DNA from: Candidatus Bathyarchaeota archaeon
GTDB lineage: Archaea > Thermoproteota > Bathyarchaeia > Bathyarchaeales > Bathyarchaeaceae
DNA: 7,643 nucleotides
Reading direction: 5' to 3'
Assembly (NCBI GenBank): GCA_029883255.1
Contig: JAOUJL010000064.1
Coordinates: 1 to 7,643 of the forward strand
Position numbers and translations under genes: made by a program. The notes under the pieces are model-generated. The model was given only the letters and a program-made list of their open reading frames with translations. It was not told the origin of the DNA and searched no databases. Numbering within the stretch: the stretch's first letter is position 1; each line of letters starts with the position of its first letter. Shown in pieces: positions 1-7,643 of this stretch.

Positions 1-2242
1 TCTCTTCATAGATCGGCGTCTTTCTGAACCGTTTTGGTAGTTCCGCAAGCCTTTTGGGCCCCATGGTTCTTCCACGAGGTAGAGCGCCGAACCGTTCAGC
101 AACAAACTTCATCTTGGAGGCAAAGGGGAAGCGTGCCTTGAGATAATCGTTAAACGCTTGCTCCACCTCTTCTTCTGTTAACTCGAAAAGGAGACACTGA
201 ATCTTTTCAAGATCATTAAATTCTGCTTTTCGAGGCATCTCGACCAGAATTCGGTAACCGTCGTTCCACCAGCCAGTTATAAGCTCATGATCTGAAAGAA
301 TAGAGTCAAAAATGCAACCTAAAGTTCGATTCACAACCTCTCCAAAACACGCGTGGATGACTACGTATTTGTCAAAAGCTTCAATGAGAATGTGATTGTT
401 AGTCGGAAGAGGAGCGCCCCGCGTTAAATGTTCATGAATCTCTTCGACGGGATTTAGCAATGTCGATCCATTAGTGGAAAGCTCTTTTGCAAGTTTTTCA
501 GCCACGACCTTGACGTTTTTCTCTCGGTTCAACTCCCTAGCAATGTCTCTTCGAAGTCTGCCTACTTGCTGAGCGAGAGTAAGTGGCACTGGAAGAATTT
601 CGCCATCCCAGCCGGGGATTGCTGCCATAAGGTCCTCGGAGGGGACTACGTAAACGTTACCTGTTTCATCTTCTATCTGGACGATTCGCCACACCTTGCC
701 TCGGCATATGAAATTGAGTCCTACTCGTGCTCTAAGGGCCACGAACTCATCACCGAGGGTACCAATGCGGTGGTCTGAGAGTATGTCTATGATGGGATAT
801 CGTCTTTCGTCAGGAATCATGGATAGGTTCTCGTAATAATACAGCCTAGTTCTTCGCGTCTTGTTCAATGTGTTTCCTTCAATTCGTAATTCTCTCAACC
901 TATGTAGATAATTTACAACATCTAAAAGTTTAGCTTTAGAGAGATTTCGATACGGGTATGCTCGACGCAAAATTTCAAAAACTTGATTAGCAGTCGTTCT
1001 TCGTTGATCTAGCAATATTCCAGCAATCTGATGTGCCAACACATCCAATGCGTTTTCATGTATAGATATCGGTTCTAAGCAACCTTTGTAGGCCTGTTGT
1101 GTGGCGGCCACTGCTTCTAGTGTGTCGTCAGACGACGCTGTGATGATTACACCCTTCGAGGTAAGATCTAATTTATGTCCGCTTCTCCCCACGCGTTGAA
1201 TCAAGCTGGTTACTTGGCGCGGGGACAAGTATTGAATGACCAAGTCTATGTGTCCAATGTCAATTCCTAGCTGCAGAGTGCTGGTGCATACAATTGCCTT
1301 GAGAACCTTCGCTTTAAACTCGTCTTCAACGCGGCTTCTTTCTTCTCTGGATAAGGATCCATGGTGAACTGCTATGCTGGATGTGAGTTGGTTGAATTTG
1401 TGTCCGAGCATTTCAGCGTTTGTTCGAGCGTTGACGAAGATTAAGGTGGAAGCGTGGTTTTTCACTAGGTTTAATATTCTTCTTATCCTTGCTGCGGCCT
1501 CGGGGGCTGTTCTCAGTTTTTGGGCCATATCGTAATCTAGATCTGCAGGGACCGAGTTTTCCACGATATATTGGTAACCCTTCGGCAAAGGCACTGTAAT
1601 CACTTTGATGGGCCGATTTGTTCCAGCAATAAATTTTGCCACTTTTTGGGGGTTGCCGACGGTGGCGGATAAGCCGACTCTTTGAAACTCCTTTCCGGCG
1701 ATTTCATTCAGTCTTTCTAATGCAACTGTGAGCTGGACTCCACGTTTGTCCTCCGCGATCTCGTGAACCTCGTCTACAATGACATACCGAACATGGCTGA
1801 GATGCCTTTGCATACGTGAGCCTGGCAGGATAGCCTGGAGAGTTTCTGGAGTTGTTACAAGCATATTAGGTGGGCGGAGTGCTTGTCTTCGACGGATCTT
1901 GATTTCAGTGTCGCCATGCCGCACTTCTGCTGAAATGTCGAGGTGAAATGCCCAATCGGATAAGCGTAGTATCATGTCACGATTGAGTGCACGCAGCGGC
2001 GTAATGTAGATGATAGATATTCCTTTCTTGTTTTGTTGCTGAATGAAGTTGGAGAGAATAGGGAGAAGAACCGCCTCGGTTTTTCCGCTCCCCGTTGGCG
2101 CGATTAATAAAACATTTTCTCTTTTTAGAATGGGTGGGATAGCCTTAACCTGTGGAGTAGTGGGTTCAGAGAATCCTAACTGGGTTAAAGCATTACGCAC
2201 TGGTTTTGCAAGCAGATTAAAAACGTCAGAGTCCATCGGCAT
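1..2242 (-). CDS. lhr: Lhr-type superfamily 2 DExH helicase (3' end beyond the window)
   Basis: ATP-dependent 3'-5' nucleic-acid helicase of the Lhr family, which acts in DNA repair or on RNA. Reading the minus strand from ATG 2242 gives 747 residues without a stop before the left edge. Visible motifs are a Q-motif-like FSEPTTPQ (24-31), Walker A APTGSGKT (48-55), motif Ia TPLRALN (81-87), TPETLQ (131-136), DEVH (157-160), SAT (192-194), VHHGSLSREER (292-302), the Lhr-typical STLQLGIDIGHIDLVIQY (321-338) and motif VI QRVGRSGH (349-356). The region after about residue 380 fits the Lhr winged-helix and domain 4 part, including ERFGALPRGR near the edge. Archaeal Lhr proteins are usually around 850-950 residues, so perhaps 100-200 are missing. 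The frame stays open upstream of ATG 2242, so an earlier TTG or GTG start is possible. ATG 2242 puts the Q motif at the usual distance. The family call is firm; the subtype (aLhr1 or aLhr2) is not resolved. Confidence 0.93.
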   Translation of the reverse strand, partial: MPMDSDVFNLLAKPVRNALTQLGFSEPTTPQVKAIPPILKRENVLLIAPTGSGKTEAVLLPILSNFIQQQNKKGISIIYITPLRALNRDMILRLSDWAFHLDISAEVRHGDTEIKIRRRQALRPPNMLVTTPETLQAILPGSRMQRHLSHVRYVIVDEVHEIAEDKRGVQLTVALERLNEIAGKEFQRVGLSATVGNPQKVAKFIAGTNRPIKVITVPLPKGYQYIVENSVPADLDYDMAQKLRTAPEAAARIRRILNLVKNHASTLIFVNARTNAEMLGHKFNQLTSSIAVHHGSLSREERSRVEDEFKAKVLKAIVCTSTLQLGIDIGHIDLVIQYLSPRQVTSLIQRVGRSGHKLDLTSKGVIITASSDDTLEAVAATQQAYKGCLEPISIHENALDVLAHQIAGILLDQRRTTANQVFEILRRAYPYRNLSKAKLLDVVNYLHRLRELRIEGNTLNKTRRTRLYYYENLSMIPDERRYPIIDILSDHRIGTLGDEFVALRARVGLNFICRGKVWRIVQIEDETGNVYVVPSEDLMAAIPGWDGEILPVPLTLAQQVGRLRRDIARELNREKNVKVVAEKLAKELSTNGSTLLNPVEEIHEHLTRGAPLPTNNHILIEAFDKYVVIHACFGEVVNRTLGCIFDSILSDHELITGWWNDGYRILVEMPRKAEFNDLEKIQCLLFELTEEEVEQAFNDYLKARFPFASKMKFVAERFGALPRGRTMGPKRLAELPKRFRKTPIYEE

Positions 2243-2312
2243 TTTTTCTTCTGTCAAATTGTTGATCGCCCCTCACTCGGTAGCTGCTCTCATAGAGCCC
2301 AAGTATGGGCGA

Positions 2313-2854: not shown

Positions 2855-3511
2855 ATGCCAGACAAATTTGTTAAACGATGGGGAGAAGGATACAATCAAA
2901 CACCGATTACCACAAAAATCAAAGAAGCCGTTCGCCCTCAAGGTCCATTGAAACCGCGCCTGGATTTTGCGATCAGACGCATCGACATGCAAGTTCAAAA
3001 ACTAGACAAAGCATCCGACCGATTCTCAGACCGTGACAAATCGATTTTTACACGAATCGTTGATGCATACACCAAACATGACACGCCACGTGCCAACGTC
3101 TTCGCTAGCGAATTAGCCGAAATACGCAAAATGGAAAAAATGATAATGCACGCAAGGCTCGCCTTAGAGCAGATTGTCCTGAGGTTAAGAACAGTTTCGG
3201 AGCTTGGCGACATAGTCACCACGCTTGCTCCAGCAGTAGGTGTGCTACGTAGCATTCAAACAGGGATGGCCAATATCTTTCCGGAAGCAGAAAAGGAATT
3301 TGGACACATTGGAAACATGCTCAGCGGGATAATCGTAGACGCTGGCCAGACTACAGGGTTAAACCTAGACTTTGAAGCGTCAAATGAAGATGCACAGAAG
3401 ATTCTAACTGAAGCAGCCACAGTTGCGGAACAGAAGATTAAAGAAAAGTTCCCTGAGTTGCCTGCAGGCATACCATCAATAGGCGAGGAAGCCCCAACTG
3501 AAATCGGATGA
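2855..3511 (+). CDS. ESCRT-III family protein of CdvB type without winged helix (CdvB paralog)
   Basis: Filament-forming ESCRT-III protein expected at the division site. It has 218 residues, a size close to Sulfolobus CdvB1 and CdvB2. A basic N-terminal stretch (KFVKRW, 4-9) may touch membrane. The core begins near PLKPRLDFAIRRID (31-44), followed by the long alpha1-alpha2 hairpin with the CdvB signature RANVFASELAEIRKME (79-94) and helices through 197. After the last helix comes FPELPAGIP (199-207), a good MIM2-type peptide of the kind bound by the CdvC MIT domain. The protein ends soon after, so there is no winged helix to bind CdvA. It is first in the operon, 37 nt ahead of cdvA. Its partner in the cluster (4290-5156) shares the RA..FA.E.AE.RK signature and the following pattern. 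Assignment to the ESCRT-III family is strong; equating it to CdvB1, B2 or B3 is not possible by eye. Confidence 0.9.
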   Translation: MPDKFVKRWGEGYNQTPITTKIKEAVRPQGPLKPRLDFAIRRIDMQVQKLDKASDRFSDRDKSIFTRIVDAYTKHDTPRANVFASELAEIRKMEKMIMHARLALEQIVLRLRTVSELGDIVTTLAPAVGVLRSIQTGMANIFPEAEKEFGHIGNMLSGIIVDAGQTTGLNLDFEASNEDAQKILTEAATVAEQKIKEKFPELPAGIPSIGEEAPTEIG

Positions 3512-3548: not shown

Positions 3549-4259
3549 ATGCCAAATCCTTCTTCCAACCCCTTTCTATTTGTCGGCAAGACTGTTAGTG
3601 ACGAATATGGACGTCAAATTGGGCGAATCGCATCATTCATGGTTAGCCCAGATGGGCGCATTAATACAGTTTTTGTCGAGCATGGAGACGGAGAATTTCT
3701 TCGCTACCCGAACACTCAGTTCAAAGTGAATGGTAGCAACATCATAATCTTGCCCACTGTTAAATTGAAAGTGAAGACACTCTGCGATGAGATACCGCTA
3801 ATCTGGCGAAAAGATCAAGCGTTGAAAGAACTCTCGGAAAAGAAACGTGTTTCAACGGAAATGTTTAACGATATTCACAAAAGCTTTGAAGGTGCGTTAA
3901 ATCAACTGAAAGCGGATGCGCAAACCACCATAGATGATATAGATAAACAGATCGAGAAGTGTGCTCAGCAGACTAACGATCTTCACTCAGCTTTAGTAAA
4001 CCTGGAAATTGAACGTGAAATTGGCAGAATTGATGACGAATCATATCAAACGGCTATGGGTATGATACAGCAAGGTTTGAAACAGGTCAATGCTGAAAAG
4101 ACTGATCTTGACGCAATGAGAAACAAATTATCCAACATAGTTCTTGGAGATACATCTATAACTTCGGTAGAAAAGAAGACGGAAAAAGAAGCCCGATCTC
4201 CTCAGGCTACGACTCTTCCCGAACCACCAGTTGTAGTTCACGTGAAACCGAGTTCTTAA
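3549..4259 (+). CDS. cdvA: CdvA, membrane-binding division protein with PRC-barrel and coiled coil
   Basis: In Sulfolobus, CdvA binds membrane and DNA at mid-cell and recruits CdvB. The protein has 236 residues, about the size of the Sulfolobus one. Residues 9-73 form a PRC-barrel-like beta domain: FLFVGKTVSDEYGRQIGRI, MVSPDGRINTVFVE, then FKVNGSNIIILPT. Residues 86-197 are a long charged helical, coiled-coil region (DIDKQIEKCAQQTNDLHSAL, EREIGRIDDESY). A polar linker follows, then a C-terminal peptide LPEPPVVVHV (223-232) and PSS at the end. That tail sits where Sulfolobus CdvA has its ESCRT-III-binding (E3B) peptide, which docks as a strand on the CdvB winged helix. Here it is also almost identical to the MIM2-position motif of CdvB from the same operon. 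The next gene starts 30 nt downstream. Family call is strong from domain order and context. Confidence 0.9.
   Translation: MPNPSSNPFLFVGKTVSDEYGRQIGRIASFMVSPDGRINTVFVEHGDGEFLRYPNTQFKVNGSNIIILPTVKLKVKTLCDEIPLIWRKDQALKELSEKKRVSTEMFNDIHKSFEGALNQLKADAQTTIDDIDKQIEKCAQQTNDLHSALVNLEIEREIGRIDDESYQTAMGMIQQGLKQVNAEKTDLDAMRNKLSNIVLGDTSITSVEKKTEKEARSPQATTLPEPPVVVHVKPSS
4215..4244 (+). other. CdvA C-terminal E3B/MIM2-like peptide
   Basis: Encodes LPEPPVVVHV (CdvA residues 223-232). The copy in CdvB is LPEPPVAVTV, coded at 4824-4853. The peptides agree at 8 of 10 positions, while many third codon bases differ (for example CTT-CCC-GAA-CCA-CCA against CTT-CCT-GAA-CCG-CCT). The likeness is therefore kept at protein level rather than being a fresh DNA copy. 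Confidence 0.6.
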
Positions 4260-4289
4260 AATCCGACGCAGACAGGATGGGCGGGGACG

Positions 4290-5156
4290 GTGTTCAAGAA
4301 GGTTTTTCGCTCCCCTCCACTTGAAGATCGTATTCTTCAAGCAATGCGAAAACTAATGATTCAACATGTCAGACTGGAAAAAGTAAGTTTTAGATTACGT
4401 CAAAGGGACAGAATGTTATTTGCAAAATGCACTATGGCAATTAAAAATCAAAATCAAGAGCGGGCAATGATTTTTGCTAACGAATCCGCTGAAGTTAGAA
4501 AACTGATTACTATCGTTGTGCAAACCGACCTAGTCATAGAACGAGTAATTCTAAGACTTGAAACCATCAAAGAATTGAACATCATAATGGTGGATCTAAA
4601 ACCTGCGCTTAAAGTCCTTGAAAATGTCACAAAATGTATTGATGGAATAATGCCTGATGTTTCATCTGAACTAGGAAAGGTGAACGATGCCATCAGTGAG
4701 ACTCTAGTCACAACCAACATCAGTTCCCCGCATCTGACCATGCCACTCGAAGTAAAGACCCCTGGTGGTGAAAAAATACTTGAAGAAGTCTCCACGCTTC
4801 TTGAGCAAAGGTTAAGGGAGAAGCTTCCTGAACCGCCTGTCGCCGTCACTGTCACAGAGAGAATTGAACCTGTAGAAAGTCCAAAACAAATGGTTGCTCT
4901 TGCCACTGGCTGTTCAGAAGTTTATAGAGAAAAAGACCCTCAAACCTGTGTGGAAATGAAACGCGTTTCATTCACAATTCAACATTCATCATCGTTGGAG
5001 GACGCACTACTGGATTATATTAAGAGTCATGAAAATCAAATTGATGTTAATCAATGCGCGCTAGAATTGAATATCTCATCTGAAGACGTGGAGAAGACAC
5101 TAGAAAATCTGGGCGCGCAGAGAAAGATAAGGGTTGAACAGTGTGATCAATTATGA
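4290..5156 (+). CDS. cdvB: CdvB, ESCRT-III core plus C-terminal winged helix
   Basis: ESCRT-III subunit that in Sulfolobus links CdvA to the division filament. It has 288 residues from a GTG start. The nearby ATG at 4277 is out of frame, and only a weak G-rich ribosome site (4281-4286) precedes GTG 4290. The ESCRT-III core covers about 10-178, with the hairpin signature RAMIFANESAEVRK (58-71) and VILRLETIKEL (86-96). LPEPPVAVTV (179-188) follows the last helix at the MIM2 position. A variable linker runs from about 189 to 234, then a winged helix from about 235 to 284 (SLEDALLDYIKSHENQIDVN, then LNISSEDVEKTLENL and KIRVEQ as the wing). This is the CdvA-docking domain and distinguishes the gene from the first paralog. 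Its stop TGA overlaps the cdvC start in ATGA, which implies translational coupling. Confidence 0.92.
   Translation: MFKKVFRSPPLEDRILQAMRKLMIQHVRLEKVSFRLRQRDRMLFAKCTMAIKNQNQERAMIFANESAEVRKLITIVVQTDLVIERVILRLETIKELNIIMVDLKPALKVLENVTKCIDGIMPDVSSELGKVNDAISETLVTTNISSPHLTMPLEVKTPGGEKILEEVSTLLEQRLREKLPEPPVAVTVTERIEPVESPKQMVALATGCSEVYREKDPQTCVEMKRVSFTIQHSSSLEDALLDYIKSHENQIDVNQCALELNISSEDVEKTLENLGAQRKIRVEQCDQL
4824..4853 (+). other. CdvB MIM2-position peptide
   Basis: Encodes LPEPPVAVTV (CdvB residues 179-188) directly after the final core helix (EQRLREK). It occupies the same place as FPELPAGIP in the first paralog (EQKIKEK before it). By position and pattern it is the likely docking peptide for the CdvC MIT domain. 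The beta-prone VAVTV half is unlike the first paralog and like the CdvA tail. Confidence 0.6.
5143..5148 (+). promoter_or_regulatory. Ribosome binding site of cdvC inside cdvB
   Basis: GTGATC, complementary to the archaeal 16S tail, lies within the last codons of cdvB, 4 nt before ATG 5153. With the ATGA stop-start overlap it supports coupled translation, which would keep CdvC synthesis proportional to CdvB. Confidence 0.6.
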
Positions 5157-6313
5157 GTGCATCTCAAGAACTTGAAAAAGCAGCGAAGAATTATGCAGTT
5201 GAAGCCATCCGCCTTGATAAACAGGGCGCCAAAGGAATGGCTATCACTATGTATCAGAAAGCCATTGAAACCCTCCTAAATCTTGCTCAGCTATACCCTG
5301 ACTACAACTTGAACAAAGTTTACATTCAGCGGGCAATGGCGTATCAAGAAAGAGTGAAGGCTCTGCAAGGTGTTGGGTCTATGGAGCCACGGGGAGAACG
5401 AAAACCAGGCGTAACGGCAACACCTTCACAAGGAGAGAAAGTAAGCTACGATGAGCTTGTGCTCAAAGAAAAACTCGATGTGAGATGGGGGCAAGTTGTG
5501 GGTTTAGAGACGGCAAAGAAGGCAATTAAAGAAGCAATCGTTTATCCAGTTCAGAGGCCAGACTTGTTCCCGTTAGGCTGGCCAAGAGGAATCCTCCTAT
5601 TCGGTCCACCTGGATGCGGAAAAACATTAATAGCTGCGGCTGTGGCCACAGAGATCGATGCGGCGTTCATCTCAGTGGACGCCGCGTCTATCATGTCAAA
5701 GTGGCTGGGGGAAGCAGAACAGAATGTTGCTAGACTCTTTGGCTCGGCAAGAAAGTCAGCTAACGAGGGACATCCCGCCATAGTCTTCATCGATGAGCTT
5801 GATTCACTAATCGGGATGCACTCAAACGAGGTTGGAGGCGAAACTAGGGTGCGTAATCAATTCCTTAAAGAGATGGATGGTATAGTAGACAAGGGTAAAA
5901 ATCTCCATATGTATGTAATCGGAGCCACAAACAAGCCGTGGGCTCTGGACTGGCCGTTCATAAGAAGATTCCAGAAACGAATTTTGGTTCCCTTACCTGA
6001 TCATTCTGCGCGTTTGGGAATGTTCAAGCTCTACTCCACTCAGCTAAAACTGGCATCAGACATAGACACGCATAGACTAGCTAGATTTTCTGAGGGATTT
6101 TCTGGAAGCGACCTACGTGACGTGTGTCAGTCAGCGCACCTTAAGGTTATTGGAGAGCTTTTTGAGTCTGGTCAAGCAGATGATAAAAAGGCTCAGCCAA
6201 GATCAATATCTATGGACGACTTTAAGCATATTCTGGAAGAAAGAAAGCCAAGCGTTTCAGTGAATATGGTGGACAAATATAACCGTTGGTTTGAAGCATT
6301 TAAGGCACTTTAG
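5153..6313 (+). CDS. cdvC: CdvC, Vps4-type AAA+ ATPase with MIT domain
   Basis: ATPase that pulls on and disassembles ESCRT-III filaments in the last step of division. It has 386 residues. The N-terminal MIT domain is a three-helix bundle at about 3-72 (ELEKAAKNYAVEAIRLDKQG, AITMYQKAIETLLNL, AYQERVKAL), then a Pro/Gly linker (73-97). The AAA+ core has Walker A GPPGCGKT (151-158), pore loop SKWLGEAE (182-189), Walker B IVFIDELDS (210-218), sensor 1 IGATNKPWALDWPFIRRF (256-273) with arginine fingers R271 and R272, and sensor 2 GFSGSDLRD (315-323). The segment that in eukaryotic Vps4 carries the beta domain is short here (about 340-353), as expected for archaeal CdvC. A C-terminal helix ends NRWFEAFKAL, like the Vps4 terminal helix. 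All catalytic residues are present. It is last in the operon and overlaps cdvB by 4 nt. Confidence 0.96.
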   Translation: MSASQELEKAAKNYAVEAIRLDKQGAKGMAITMYQKAIETLLNLAQLYPDYNLNKVYIQRAMAYQERVKALQGVGSMEPRGERKPGVTATPSQGEKVSYDELVLKEKLDVRWGQVVGLETAKKAIKEAIVYPVQRPDLFPLGWPRGILLFGPPGCGKTLIAAAVATEIDAAFISVDAASIMSKWLGEAEQNVARLFGSARKSANEGHPAIVFIDELDSLIGMHSNEVGGETRVRNQFLKEMDGIVDKGKNLHMYVIGATNKPWALDWPFIRRFQKRILVPLPDHSARLGMFKLYSTQLKLASDIDTHRLARFSEGFSGSDLRDVCQSAHLKVIGELFESGQADDKKAQPRSISMDDFKHILEERKPSVSVNMVDKYNRWFEAFKAL

Positions 6314-6541
6314 CCCGGGGAGGCCGTTGGATAGGTTTAGAGCAACTCCGTTTTCTCCCCTGATATGCTGGAAAAACTCTCCTTTCTCTTCAGCATACCC
6401 TGCTCTAAACCCCAAAAAGGCCTCTGTCAATGTCTGGCCAGGCCCGAGAAGCCTCCTGACGACTGAGGAAAACGCCCCGTGTCTCTCTTGATCAACTTTC
6501 TCTTTGGAGACGAATCCAATTCGAACTAGCTTTCTCGCCAC
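6257..6541 (-). CDS. Possible small protein of unknown function overlapping ubiX and cdvC
   Basis: A 94-codon frame from GTG 6541, opening MARKLVRIGF. It overlaps the last 16 nt of ubiX on the same strand and, antisense, the last 57 nt of cdvC. Codon choice (AGA/AGG, GAG, GTT) is not unlike the neighbours, and an overlapping GTG behind ubiX would suit translational coupling. Against it, no clear ribosome site precedes the start, the frame contains the long inverted repeat 6321-6423, and the C-terminus reads into cdvC. The middle (LGPGQTLTEAFLGFRAGYAE) is protein-like, but I recognise no family. It may be a real small gene, a decayed gene or chance. Confidence 0.33.
   Translation of the reverse strand: MARKLVRIGFVSKEKVDQERHGAFSSVVRRLLGPGQTLTEAFLGFRAGYAEEKGEFFQHIRGENGVALNLSNGLPGLKCLKCFKPTVIFVHHIH
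6321..6423. repeat. Nested inverted repeat (potential long hairpin) just after cdvC
   Basis: Four complementary arm pairs nest in the correct order. They are AGGCC (6321-6325) with GGCCT (6419-6423), TTGG (6327-6330) with CCAA (6412-6415), an 11-base perfect pair GGTTTAGAGCA (6334-6344) with TGCTCTAAACC (6401-6411), and TATGCTG (6364-6370) with CAGCATA (6391-6397). Together they give 27 Watson-Crick pairs with a 19-versus-3 nt internal loop and a terminal loop of about 20 nt. It starts seven bases after the cdvC stop, between converging genes. It could be a termination or 3'-end stability element, a small structured RNA or a remnant of a miniature transposon. I saw no target-site duplication. 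Confidence 0.6.
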
Positions 6542-7083
6542 CTTCTAGTAAGAGTGTGTTTTATTCCCAAGAGGTCCAAAACTTTTCCAACTACAAAGTC
6601 CACAAGATCGTTTATGCCCTTAGGTTCGTGATAGTATGCAGGCATCGCTGGAACAATTGTGACGTTTTCCTCCGCGAGTTCTAGCATGTTGCGTAAATGA
6701 ATAGCACTCAAAGGGGTCTCACGAGGGACGATTATCAGTTTTCGTTTTTCTTTTAACGTAACATCTGCGGCTCTTAAAATAACGTTGTCGGAGTATCCAT
6801 GAGCTATTCCTGCCAGCGTTTTCATGCTACAAGGAATGATTATCATTCCATCCGTTTTGAATGATCCACTCACGATTGGAGCATTCCAATCGTCCATATC
6901 ATAAACGCAGCTGGCTAGTCTTTCGAGGTTACTCTTTGAGGTGCCAAGTTCGTGTTCAATTACTTTTTCCCCAGCTTTGCTAATTACAAGGTGAGTTTCA
7001 ATGTTTTTGCTCCGTAACACTTCCAACAAGCGTTTGCCATAAATGACGCCACTGGCTCCGGTTATTGCTACTATTAATCGCAC
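6526..7083 (-). CDS. ubiX: UbiX-type flavin prenyltransferase
   Basis: Joins dimethylallyl phosphate to reduced FMN to make prenylated FMN, the cofactor of UbiD-type decarboxylases. With the start at GTG 7083 it has 185 residues, the normal length. Motifs are GASG at 9-12 in the FMN-binding loop, SGSF (72-75), IIPCSMKTLAGIAHG (82-96), the UbiX signature RAADVTLKEKRKLIIVPRET (104-123) with PLSAIHLRNM after it, and PAMPAYY (145-151). GTG 7083 is preferred over GTG 7092 because AGGTG lies 6 nt before it, and the protein then opens MRLIVAITGASG like its family. It is 17 nt downstream of ftr on the same strand, so it is probably cotranscribed. In many archaea a UbiD-type enzyme acts in the modified mevalonate pathway to isoprenoid lipids, a likely user of this cofactor; none is visible here. 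Confidence 0.95.
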   Translation of the reverse strand: MRLIVAITGASGVIYGKRLLEVLRSKNIETHLVISKAGEKVIEHELGTSKSNLERLASCVYDMDDWNAPIVSGSFKTDGMIIIPCSMKTLAGIAHGYSDNVILRAADVTLKEKRKLIIVPRETPLSAIHLRNMLELAEENVTIVPAMPAYYHEPKGINDLVDFVVGKVLDLLGIKHTLTRRWRES

Positions 7084-7089
7084 GTTGTG

Positions 7090-7094
7090 CACCT
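7090..7094 (-). promoter_or_regulatory. Ribosome binding site deciding the ubiX start
   Basis: AGGTG on the minus strand, between the ftr stop and GTG 7083, with a 6-nt spacer. Its own GTG (7092) is in frame and would add three residues (to give MHNV at the start), but that start would have no ribosome site of its own. Confidence 0.55.
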
Positions 7095-7100
7095 GATATG

Positions 7101-7643
7101 CTAGTTTTGTTGTAATACTTCTTTAAGATAAGCTCGGAATGGACCGAGCTTTCCTCCATAGTTACCAGCCGAGATTTTAACGACTCCCGGAACTTTCACT
7201 GCTGCTTTTATCCCTTCGACCATCGCTTTCTTAACAAAATTGGAATTCAAACCGTTTATGACGATTTCGTAAACGCTGTTCACGTTGTCTGGAACCTGTG
7301 AGTTAGACACGATTTTCTTCAGTTTCGGACAGAGTGGGTGATTCGTCGATGCTCTAAGTTTGTACTTCATTGAGCCTGATTTAGATCCAGATCCGCATAT
7401 GCCTCCAGGGAATGGTAATATGACTCCTTCAGCCCTCTGGTTGATAGACTTTACCGCTTCCTCTGCCGCTTTAAGACAGGAATCACGGCTTTCCGCTAGA
7501 ATCAGGAAATTCCCACCTGCAACGGCCTTCATAACGCCGAAGCGATCTTCCACTACGAATTCTCCTCCCATGATTGGGATGCGCCAGACATCTCGCCCTG
7601 CGACAGCATCTTTTTTTTGAAATCCGTCACCGAAAAGGCGAAG
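7101..7643 (-). CDS. ftr: Formylmethanofuran:tetrahydromethanopterin formyltransferase, C-terminal part
   Basis: Moves the formyl group from formylmethanofuran to tetrahydromethanopterin, the second step of archaeal CO2 reduction or its reverse. The last 180 residues are visible and the frame is open to the right edge. Family motifs in order are FGDGF near the edge, WRIPIMGGEFVVEDRFGV, AVAGGNFLILAES, LPFPGGICGSGSKSGS, ASTNHPLCP, VYEIVINGLN and PGVVKISAGNYGGKLGPF. The start lies outside the window. Full-length Ftr is about 297 residues, so some 115 N-terminal residues are missing. The ATG at 7571 is internal: the 24 codons before it still match the family (LFGDGF, DVWRIPI). Downstream, ubiX follows after 17 nt. 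It shows that the organism has a methanofuran/tetrahydromethanopterin C1 branch, but does not by itself show methanogenesis. Confidence 0.95.
   Translation of the reverse strand, partial: LRLFGDGFQKKDAVAGRDVWRIPIMGGEFVVEDRFGVMKAVAGGNFLILAESRDSCLKAAEEAVKSINQRAEGVILPFPGGICGSGSKSGSMKYKLRASTNHPLCPKLKKIVSNSQVPDNVNSVYEIVINGLNSNFVKKAMVEGIKAAVKVPGVVKISAGNYGGKLGPFRAYLKEVLQQN

Follow-up and report, generated by a model that had tools for sequence, protein, structure and literature searches.

The window, the whole stretch of DNA analysed here (7,643 nucleotides, positions 1 to 7,643 of contig JAOUJL010000064.1, assembly GCA_029883255.1, from a Candidatus Bathyarchaeota archaeon), carries four genes in a row on the + strand, encoding a CdvB1/B2-like protein, CdvA, a CdvB with a C-terminal winged helix and CdvC. 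The element in question is the C-terminal tail of CdvA, in which the motif LPEPP, resembling the core of the MIT-interacting motif 2 (MIM2), is joined to VVVHV, a candidate ESCRT-III-binding (E3B) strand, with a second copy of LPEPP in the neighbouring CdvB. The features of the cluster are as follows:

2855..3511, + strand: CdvB1/B2-like ESCRT-III paralog without a winged helix (NF041005, 193.8 bits, E 2.3e-57; below the cut-off of 350)
3449..3475, + strand: CdvB1 residues 199-207, FPELPAGIP, the standard motif of MIM2 type in this cluster (from the sequence; same place in the paralogs of relatives)
3549..4259, + strand: CdvA, 236 aa, with an N-terminal PRC barrel, a coiled coil, a flexible linker and a C-terminal docking tail
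4215..4229, + strand: CdvA residues 223-227, LPEPP, MIM2-core-like module (invariant in the best 120 of 1511 homologs)
4230..4244, + strand: CdvA residues 228-232, VVVHV, E3B-type strand module (alternating hydrophobic pattern; strand predicted at low confidence)
4290..5156, + strand: CdvB, 288 aa, GTG start, with an ESCRT-III core, a motif at the MIM2 position, a linker and a broken winged helix
4824..4838, + strand: CdvB residues 179-183, LPEPP, MIM2-core-like, directly after the ESCRT-III core (aligned homologs)
4839..4853, + strand: CdvB residues 184-188, VAVTV, the non-conserved part of the likeness (homologs; coil in the models)
4995..5141, + strand: CdvB residues 236-284, broken winged helix (2xvc_A profile match, hhalign, predicted helices and strand)
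5153..6313, + strand: CdvC, a Vps4-type AAA ATPase (NF041006 cell_div_CdvC, 520.9 bits, E 1.5e-156; below the cut-off of 650)
5153..5377, + strand: MIT domain of CdvC, the presumed receptor of MIM2-like peptides (phmmer, 2w2u E 8.1e-11 and 4lcb E 2.3e-11)

CdvA has the PRC barrel and the CdvA coiled coil that define the protein and scored 69.6 bits against the NCBIfam equivalog NF041007, under a curated cut-off of 350 that was passed by six of the 121 genomes of the phylum sample. CdvB matched CdvB2 (9s97, E 5.2e-26) and CdvB (9s9j, E 8.4e-19) in phmmer searches, its Pfam Snf7 score of 20.1 bits lying under the cut-off of 27.3. CdvC has the three domains of its family, with AAA (122.5 bits) and Vps4_C (22.4 bits) above their cut-offs and MIT at 23.3 bits, under its cut-off of 30 yet related to 2w2u (E 8.1e-11). 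The broken winged helix expected of an E3B partner was found in CdvB both by a profile match to 2xvc_A (E 4.8e-6) and by the way the protein ends, with helices predicted at residues 236-246, 253-259 and 264-276, a strand at 280-284 and a stop four residues past this last strand. Comparison of 19 CdvB C-termini with eight of crenarchaeal type by hhalign gave 98.6%, with E 9.3e-16 for that one comparison.

An earlier note on this DNA had claimed that CdvA residues 223-232 (LPEPPVVVHV, 4215-4244) and CdvB residues 179-188 (LPEPPVAVTV, 4824-4853) are nearly identical with diverged third codon bases. This was borne out, with 8/10 residues identical, 19/30 nucleotides alike and agreement at 2/10 third codon positions, a disagreement that speaks against recent duplication or gene conversion. 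The pair is the top ten-residue match of CdvA against CdvB, the best identity in other pairs of window proteins being five (CdvA-CdvC, CdvA-CdvB1, CdvB1-CdvC and CdvB-CdvC) or, for the homologues CdvB and CdvB1, seven. Shuffling of CdvA and CdvB yielded eight identities in 2 of 3000 trials and never more. Judged by these comparisons, the likeness exceeds chance, mainly owing to LPEPP.

The relatives in which the likeness was followed, as proteins and as loci, are nearly all recorded as Candidatus Bathyarchaeota or Bathyarchaeia, apart from a few entered as Nitrososphaerota or Crenarchaeota archaeon. The best 80 of 97 named loci yielded 77 CdvA/CdvB pairs, three loci (L160, L190 and L204) having no CdvB match. 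Identity within a genome over the ten residues was four in two pairs, five in 42, six in 22, seven in 11 and never eight, with none of the last five residues common in 41 of the 77. The 77 pairs include seven split tails, whose last five CdvA residues are spacer; when these were omitted, the 70 remaining pairs showed identities of four (1), five (41), six (17) and seven (11), with the last five residues all different in 39. A single ten-residue docking peptide common to the two proteins was rejected because relatives keep the first five residues alone in common. The likeness noted earlier was thus upheld among orthologs for the LPEPP-type core, which both proteins keep, and lost for the last five residues, and the co-variation of the two peptides that the earlier note had raised was not seen, the third residue of the CdvA core being E in 77/77 pairs whatever CdvB has (E in 69, Q in 4, A in 2 and V in 2). 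On the alignments, the full ten-residue likeness is a trait of the lineage of the window and the common core a trait of the whole group, the likeness consisting of five conserved core residues and valines that happen to coincide locally.

The core itself is strongly conserved. The best 120 of 1511 CdvA homologs all carry LPEPP, with five columns free of variation following a linker in which the columns vary or contain gaps. In the best 120 of 939 CdvB homologs the aligned core columns read LPEPP (109), LPQPP (5), LPTPP (3), LPAPP (2) or FPTPP (1), such that [LF]PxPP stands at the MIM2 position in 120/120, as it also does in 77/77 CdvB proteins of the named loci. At the DNA level, the loci examined spell the tail peptide in 77 different ways; the search pattern fixed LPEPPV, so only their synonymous spread is informative. 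In CdvB the motif lies directly after the ESCRT-III core, the same place as FPELP in CdvB1 and LPDLP in Sulfolobus islandicus CdvB (9s9j), and the earlier assignment to the MIM2 position therefore holds, the site reading EQKIKEKFPELPAGIP in CdvB1 and EQRLREKLPEPP in CdvB. In three loci of the order, the ESCRT-III core of CdvB is followed by a pair of PxPP motifs, IPEPP being paired with IPEPP or LPEPP in L081 and L082 and LPEPP with IPQPP in L068.

By the definition of a MIM2 core as hydrophobic-P-charged-hydrophobic-P (PMC8970359; this and the other papers cited by PMC number are drawn on for the parts of their texts that were available), in which proline counts as hydrophobic, CdvA LPEPP fits. 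It is termed MIM2-core-like here, rather than MIM2, because the full consensus is not matched, and this designation describes its sequence.

The five residues that follow the core set the two proteins apart. In the best 120 CdvA homologs this segment is alternating hydrophobic and free of proline in 120/120. In CdvB, a motif scan from residue 150, which found the motif in 116 of 120 homologs, gave an alternating pattern in 23/116, a proline in 38/116 and Ser at the second position in 103/116; counted by aligned column in the best 120 of 939, the figures were 25, 32 and 105. CdvB residue 185 of the window is Ala, where 105/120 of these homologs have Ser. On its sequence pattern, VVVHV of CdvA is a candidate E3B-type strand. 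Its location at the E3B place, proposed earlier, agrees with the CdvA tails of family f26, taken as Sulfolobaceae, which at this place likewise terminate in strands, for example PIPVKVINTL.

Tails were read more widely in two genome sets. Of a 61-genome set, 52 genomes each contributed one CdvA, the other nine (G005, G009, G012, G019, G025, G031, G038, G044 and G054) having weak CdvA matches or none. The phylum sample held 73 matching genomes, 15 of them also in the 61-genome set, and 52 of the other 58 were read, leaving out the tails of G063, G110, G117, G129 and G141 (f13) and G125 (f16), with f13 thus represented by 11/16. Strand calls outside the clade of the window were made by reading, as the strand pattern misses all six f26 tails, both f24 tails (by eye E3B strands, with PIPVKVINTL and PIPVKVIEG as examples), two of seven in f9 and one of four in f12. 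Three genomes of family f5 (G031, G038 and G044), one of them rated 99% complete, have weak CdvA-like matches only and no CdvA of the window type, and further weak CdvA-like coiled-coil matches occur elsewhere in many genomes (compare the extra CdvA-like proteins of Bathyarchaea; PMC11188069).

In most members of the clade the core runs directly into the strand. Among the 80 named loci, 72 tails are fused, seven are split and one reads DPEPP, with a spacer of about 28 residues in L188; by genome, spacers of 7-11 residues were found in six of seven f6 genomes and of three residues in one f4 genome. All split tails retain the core, and the f6 strand has a proline of its own (SPVVVYV, NPVVVYL). 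In family f18, LPKPP lies 33 residues before the strand in two of four genomes. Each module is also found by itself, the strand without the core in the sister clade f9/f3/f8 (core in 0/9), in f26 and in other families, and the core without the strand in 10 of the 11 f13 genomes whose tails were read, out of 16 matching ones. By analogy with the literature, the f13 tails resemble the published Thaumarchaeota type, and f13 would on this tail type be Nitrosopumilus-like. Family f26 appears to be Sulfolobaceae-like, as the family passing the NF041007 cut-off and with a member, L107, that matches S. islandicus CdvB at E 1e-88. Two [LIMF]PxPP motifs, spaced by 13 residues, occur in several f13 CdvA tails (L059, L060, L084, L085, L087 and L092), which finish with a stretch resembling DNDWLARMEAQ rather than with a strand.

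A tree built from CdvA with the tail removed (102 rows; G022, G023 and G134 omitted as near-copies) placed the [LIVMF]PxPP core in 41/42 rows of one clade (SH-like approximate likelihood ratio test, 91) and in 0/9 of its sister. The history of the core on this tree, a quick search without bootstrap and with long branches, requires at least four changes, a parsimony minimum under an uncertain root. Because at least four changes are needed, the bathyarchaeal and f13 cores were probably gained separately.

Two artificial chains were modelled with AlphaFold. The first joins CdvA and CdvB in a single chain, the genes lying in one frame and the stop being read as glycine (alignment A2, 89 rows), and the second joins CdvA, CdvB and MIT of a relative, L132, whose CdvA is 94% identical (alignment A3, 107 rows); every row of both alignments was checked. 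In the first, CdvA 228-232 forms a strand just above a predicted local distance difference test score (pLDDT) of 50, in blocks averaging 51-55, and in the second CdvA 228-233 forms a strand at pLDDT below 50. The CdvB peptide is coil in both, with pLDDT below 50 over chain residues 430-480 and 426-480, respectively; the overall predicted template modelling scores were 0.42 and 0.37. At low confidence, the models thus predict that the CdvA strand forms in the presence of CdvB, for which the winged helix would be the natural candidate partner, and they lean weakly towards E3B-type docking and away from self-docking of CdvB. Foldseek with the first model returned CdvA, CdvB and PRC-barrel-like-domain proteins among the best 50 of 444 matches, with 2xvc neither among these nor among the 50 VIA-align matches listed.

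That both modules exist, that each is conserved and that they are separated in some relatives is observed directly. The interpretation favoured here, with rather better than even confidence, is that two docking peptides are combined in the CdvA tail and provide dual docking, to CdvB by the strand and probably to CdvC by LPEPP. As in Sulfolobus, VVVHV would serve as the E3B peptide, supplying the missing strand to the sheet of the broken winged helix in CdvB, and LPEPP, repeating the MIM2-type core of CdvB, would bind MIT, where a MIM2 lies in the groove formed by helices 1 and 3, and most likely let CdvC grip the scaffold protein CdvA. In the order envisaged, CdvA filaments at the membrane would recruit CdvB via the strand, and CdvC would then be recruited via CdvB, via CdvB1 and, at times when no winged helix is bound to the strand, via CdvA itself. 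A directly abutting tail could presumably not hold both partners at once. From this a toggle may be imagined in which the strand is held by the CdvB winged helix during ring assembly and the departure of CdvB frees LPEPP for the MIT of CdvC, the ATPase being handed to the membrane scaffold only then, with the CdvA-CdvC link gained separately in Bathyarchaeia and Thaumarchaeota; this extension is doubtful, and the split tails found in part of the clade argue against a general role.

The suggestion in the earlier note that CdvA may bind the CdvC MIT domain directly is plausible from the invariance of LPEPP, its resemblance to what CdvB has at the MIM2 position and its persistence in split tails, and found no confident placement on MIT in the model. 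Several observations weigh against dual docking. CdvA LPEPP fails the longer MIM2 consensus, which has two further prolines (PMC5840170), as it is followed by VVVHVK. The cores of CdvA and CdvB do not co-vary residue by residue in the 77 pairs, the core of one named locus (L219) is the DPEPP mentioned above, and the long-branched G043, one of the 42 clade rows, has no core. In f13, among 23 CdvB paralog ends shown from 30 loci and chosen by search pattern, PEPP does stand at the MIM2 position in two of the eight genomes searched (G157 and G063, as MPEPP or IPEPP), a point in favour of dual docking, but the other 21 lack it, reading FPSVP most often or, for example, IPDVP. The CdvA of M. sedula did not bind CdvC in vitro (PMC3132758), which fits a Sulfolobus-type tail without LPEPP, a tail type presumed by analogy; CdvA and CdvC of this organism can bind CdvB together (PMC3132758). 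To these are added the low confidence of the modelled strand in either chain and the nature of the model outputs, per-residue confidence and secondary structure, which do not name its sheet partner. Finally, in the AlphaFold chain with MIT neither LPEPP nor LPQPP was confidently placed (pLDDT below 50; no known-MIM2 positive control), a failure that is not strong evidence either way because published affinities for such cores are weak. A change in MIT tracking the CdvA motif was also considered and set aside, as the 36 genomes of the clade and the nine of its sister are unlike at many positions of MIT, in a way indistinguishable from kinship.

The readings to be weighed against dual docking differ in what they make of the proline-rich core. 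LPEPP might be no more than a rigid segment on the N-terminal side of the E3B strand, a run of prolines touching the winged helix or setting the register of the strand, with no direct contact between CdvA and CdvC. In favour of this, the proline pair lies next to the strand in the majority of the clade, prolines likewise immediately precede the strand in E3B-type tails from other families (PIPVKV, PIQVVLV), and AlphaFold left LPEPP unplaced on MIT. However, split tails keep LPEPP intact 3-28 residues from the strand, with the f6 strand having its own proline, the strand occurs with no LPEPP in the sister clade f9/f3/f8, and the same core occurs at the MIM2 position of CdvB, itself not an E3B ligand, such that a simple flank is unlikely. 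It is improbable, too, that LPEPP of both proteins is read by some other common partner, for example a proteasome or segregation factor, rather than by MIT: the CdvB motif lies at the MIM2 site of paralogs and of S. islandicus CdvB, and the MIT domain is retained, although no tool identified the receptor and the MIM2 and linker region of Sulfolobus CdvB also destabilises the protein (PMC12909875).

The remaining two readings start from the ten-residue likeness. The earlier note had proposed that the CdvB peptide LPEPPVAVTV imitates E3B and fills the winged helix of CdvB itself, to be displaced by CdvA, a reading favoured by the likeness in the window and by a segment that in this species might adopt a strand. 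Against it, just 23/116 orthologs retain the alternating pattern, 38/116 have a proline in the segment, and in the two predicted chains holding both peptides only the CdvA segment is strand, the CdvB segment being coil; self-docking is accordingly very improbable and this part of the earlier proposal found no support. Scarcely credible is a recent functionless copying of DNA from one gene into the other, which ten nearly alike residues in neighbouring genes might bring to mind, given third bases that agree at 2/10 only, a core invariant in the best 120 of 1511 CdvA proteins and 77 DNA spellings of the tail.

The surroundings of the cluster are partly shared with relatives. A short open reading frame resembling a membrane protein (2416-2652, - strand), divergent from the cdvB1 gene and ending like VLWVYLSRSQE, has the same place in L001 (3078-3341), L002 (3078-3341) and L004 (3073-3336). 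At about 1-2272 (- strand) a frame open to the end of the window contains the string GSGKTEA and by eye resembles an ATP-dependent helicase, and a similar string lies beyond the cdvB1 gene of L004. After the cdv cluster follow, on the - strand, 6526-7092 (PF02441 flavoprotein, 169.5 bits) and 7101-7571 (formyltransferase proximal-lobe FTR_C, 202.2 bits).

In the literature on bathyarchaeal CdvA and CdvB, E3B and MIM2, searched by titles and abstract openings, no description of a clade with both motifs on CdvA was found. Bathyarchaea are named once in the available text of PMC11188069, for extra CdvA-like proteins, a bathyarchaeal CdvC served as a control in PMC7240154, and the 2026 structures (PMC12818579) and the study of CdvB degradation (PMC12909875) concern Sulfolobus, the latter suggesting that E3B binding may stabilise CdvB. 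The word stem "bathyarch" is absent from the text of PMC8970359. With a clade whose CdvA carries both motifs, whether Vps4/CdvC acts on the membrane scaffold itself becomes a question testable with short peptides, and the natural fused and split tails are ready-made test pieces.

Compared with the E3B system of Sulfolobus (PDB 2xvc), the bathyarchaeal proteins are alike in the predicted C-terminal strand of CdvA and in a CdvB whose chain stops soon after the final strand of the winged helix and whose profile matches 2xvc, and unlike in the conserved LPEPP before the strand, which is absent from 6/6 f26 tails; the dissociation constant (Kd) of the Sulfolobus peptide and winged helix is 6 uM, as told in PMC5840170. 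The pairing of Sulfolobus CdvB MIM2 with CdvC MIT (PDB 2w2u) shares a hydrophobic-P-x-x-P core right after the CdvB ESCRT-III core and a related MIT, whereas here the core is LPEPP rather than LPELP, the further prolines of the consensus are missing and a second copy stands on CdvA; the Sulfolobus Kd is given as about 30 uM (PMC5840170). The short MIM2 of Sulfolobus CdvB1/B2, with a Kd of over 100 uM according to the same source, resembles LPEPP in being a short core without a proline-rich end and differs in its second hydrophobic position, which is proline here.

The closest precedent for a contact between CdvA and CdvC is thaumarchaeal. Frohn et al. (2022; PMC8970359) describe CdvA with MIM2 in Thaumarchaeota and CdvA with a winged-helix-binding strand in Crenarchaeota, and the MIM2-like motif near the C-terminus of thaumarchaeal CdvA, like LPEPP here, was proposed to contact CdvC. 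The control layer that the earlier note took to be new is therefore already in print for Thaumarchaeota. In the thaumarchaeal system as described there, however, CdvA has no strand and CdvB no winged helix, whereas both are present together here, and the CdvA-core tree suggests that the gain here was separate from the thaumarchaeal one. Judged by its conservation in sequence, the bathyarchaeal CdvA tail with both docking modules, otherwise assigned to different lineages, is a real and conserved architecture, and the published split of the TACK division machines into crenarchaeal strand and thaumarchaeal MIM2 (PMC8970359) is cut across by a clade of Bathyarchaeia that has both.

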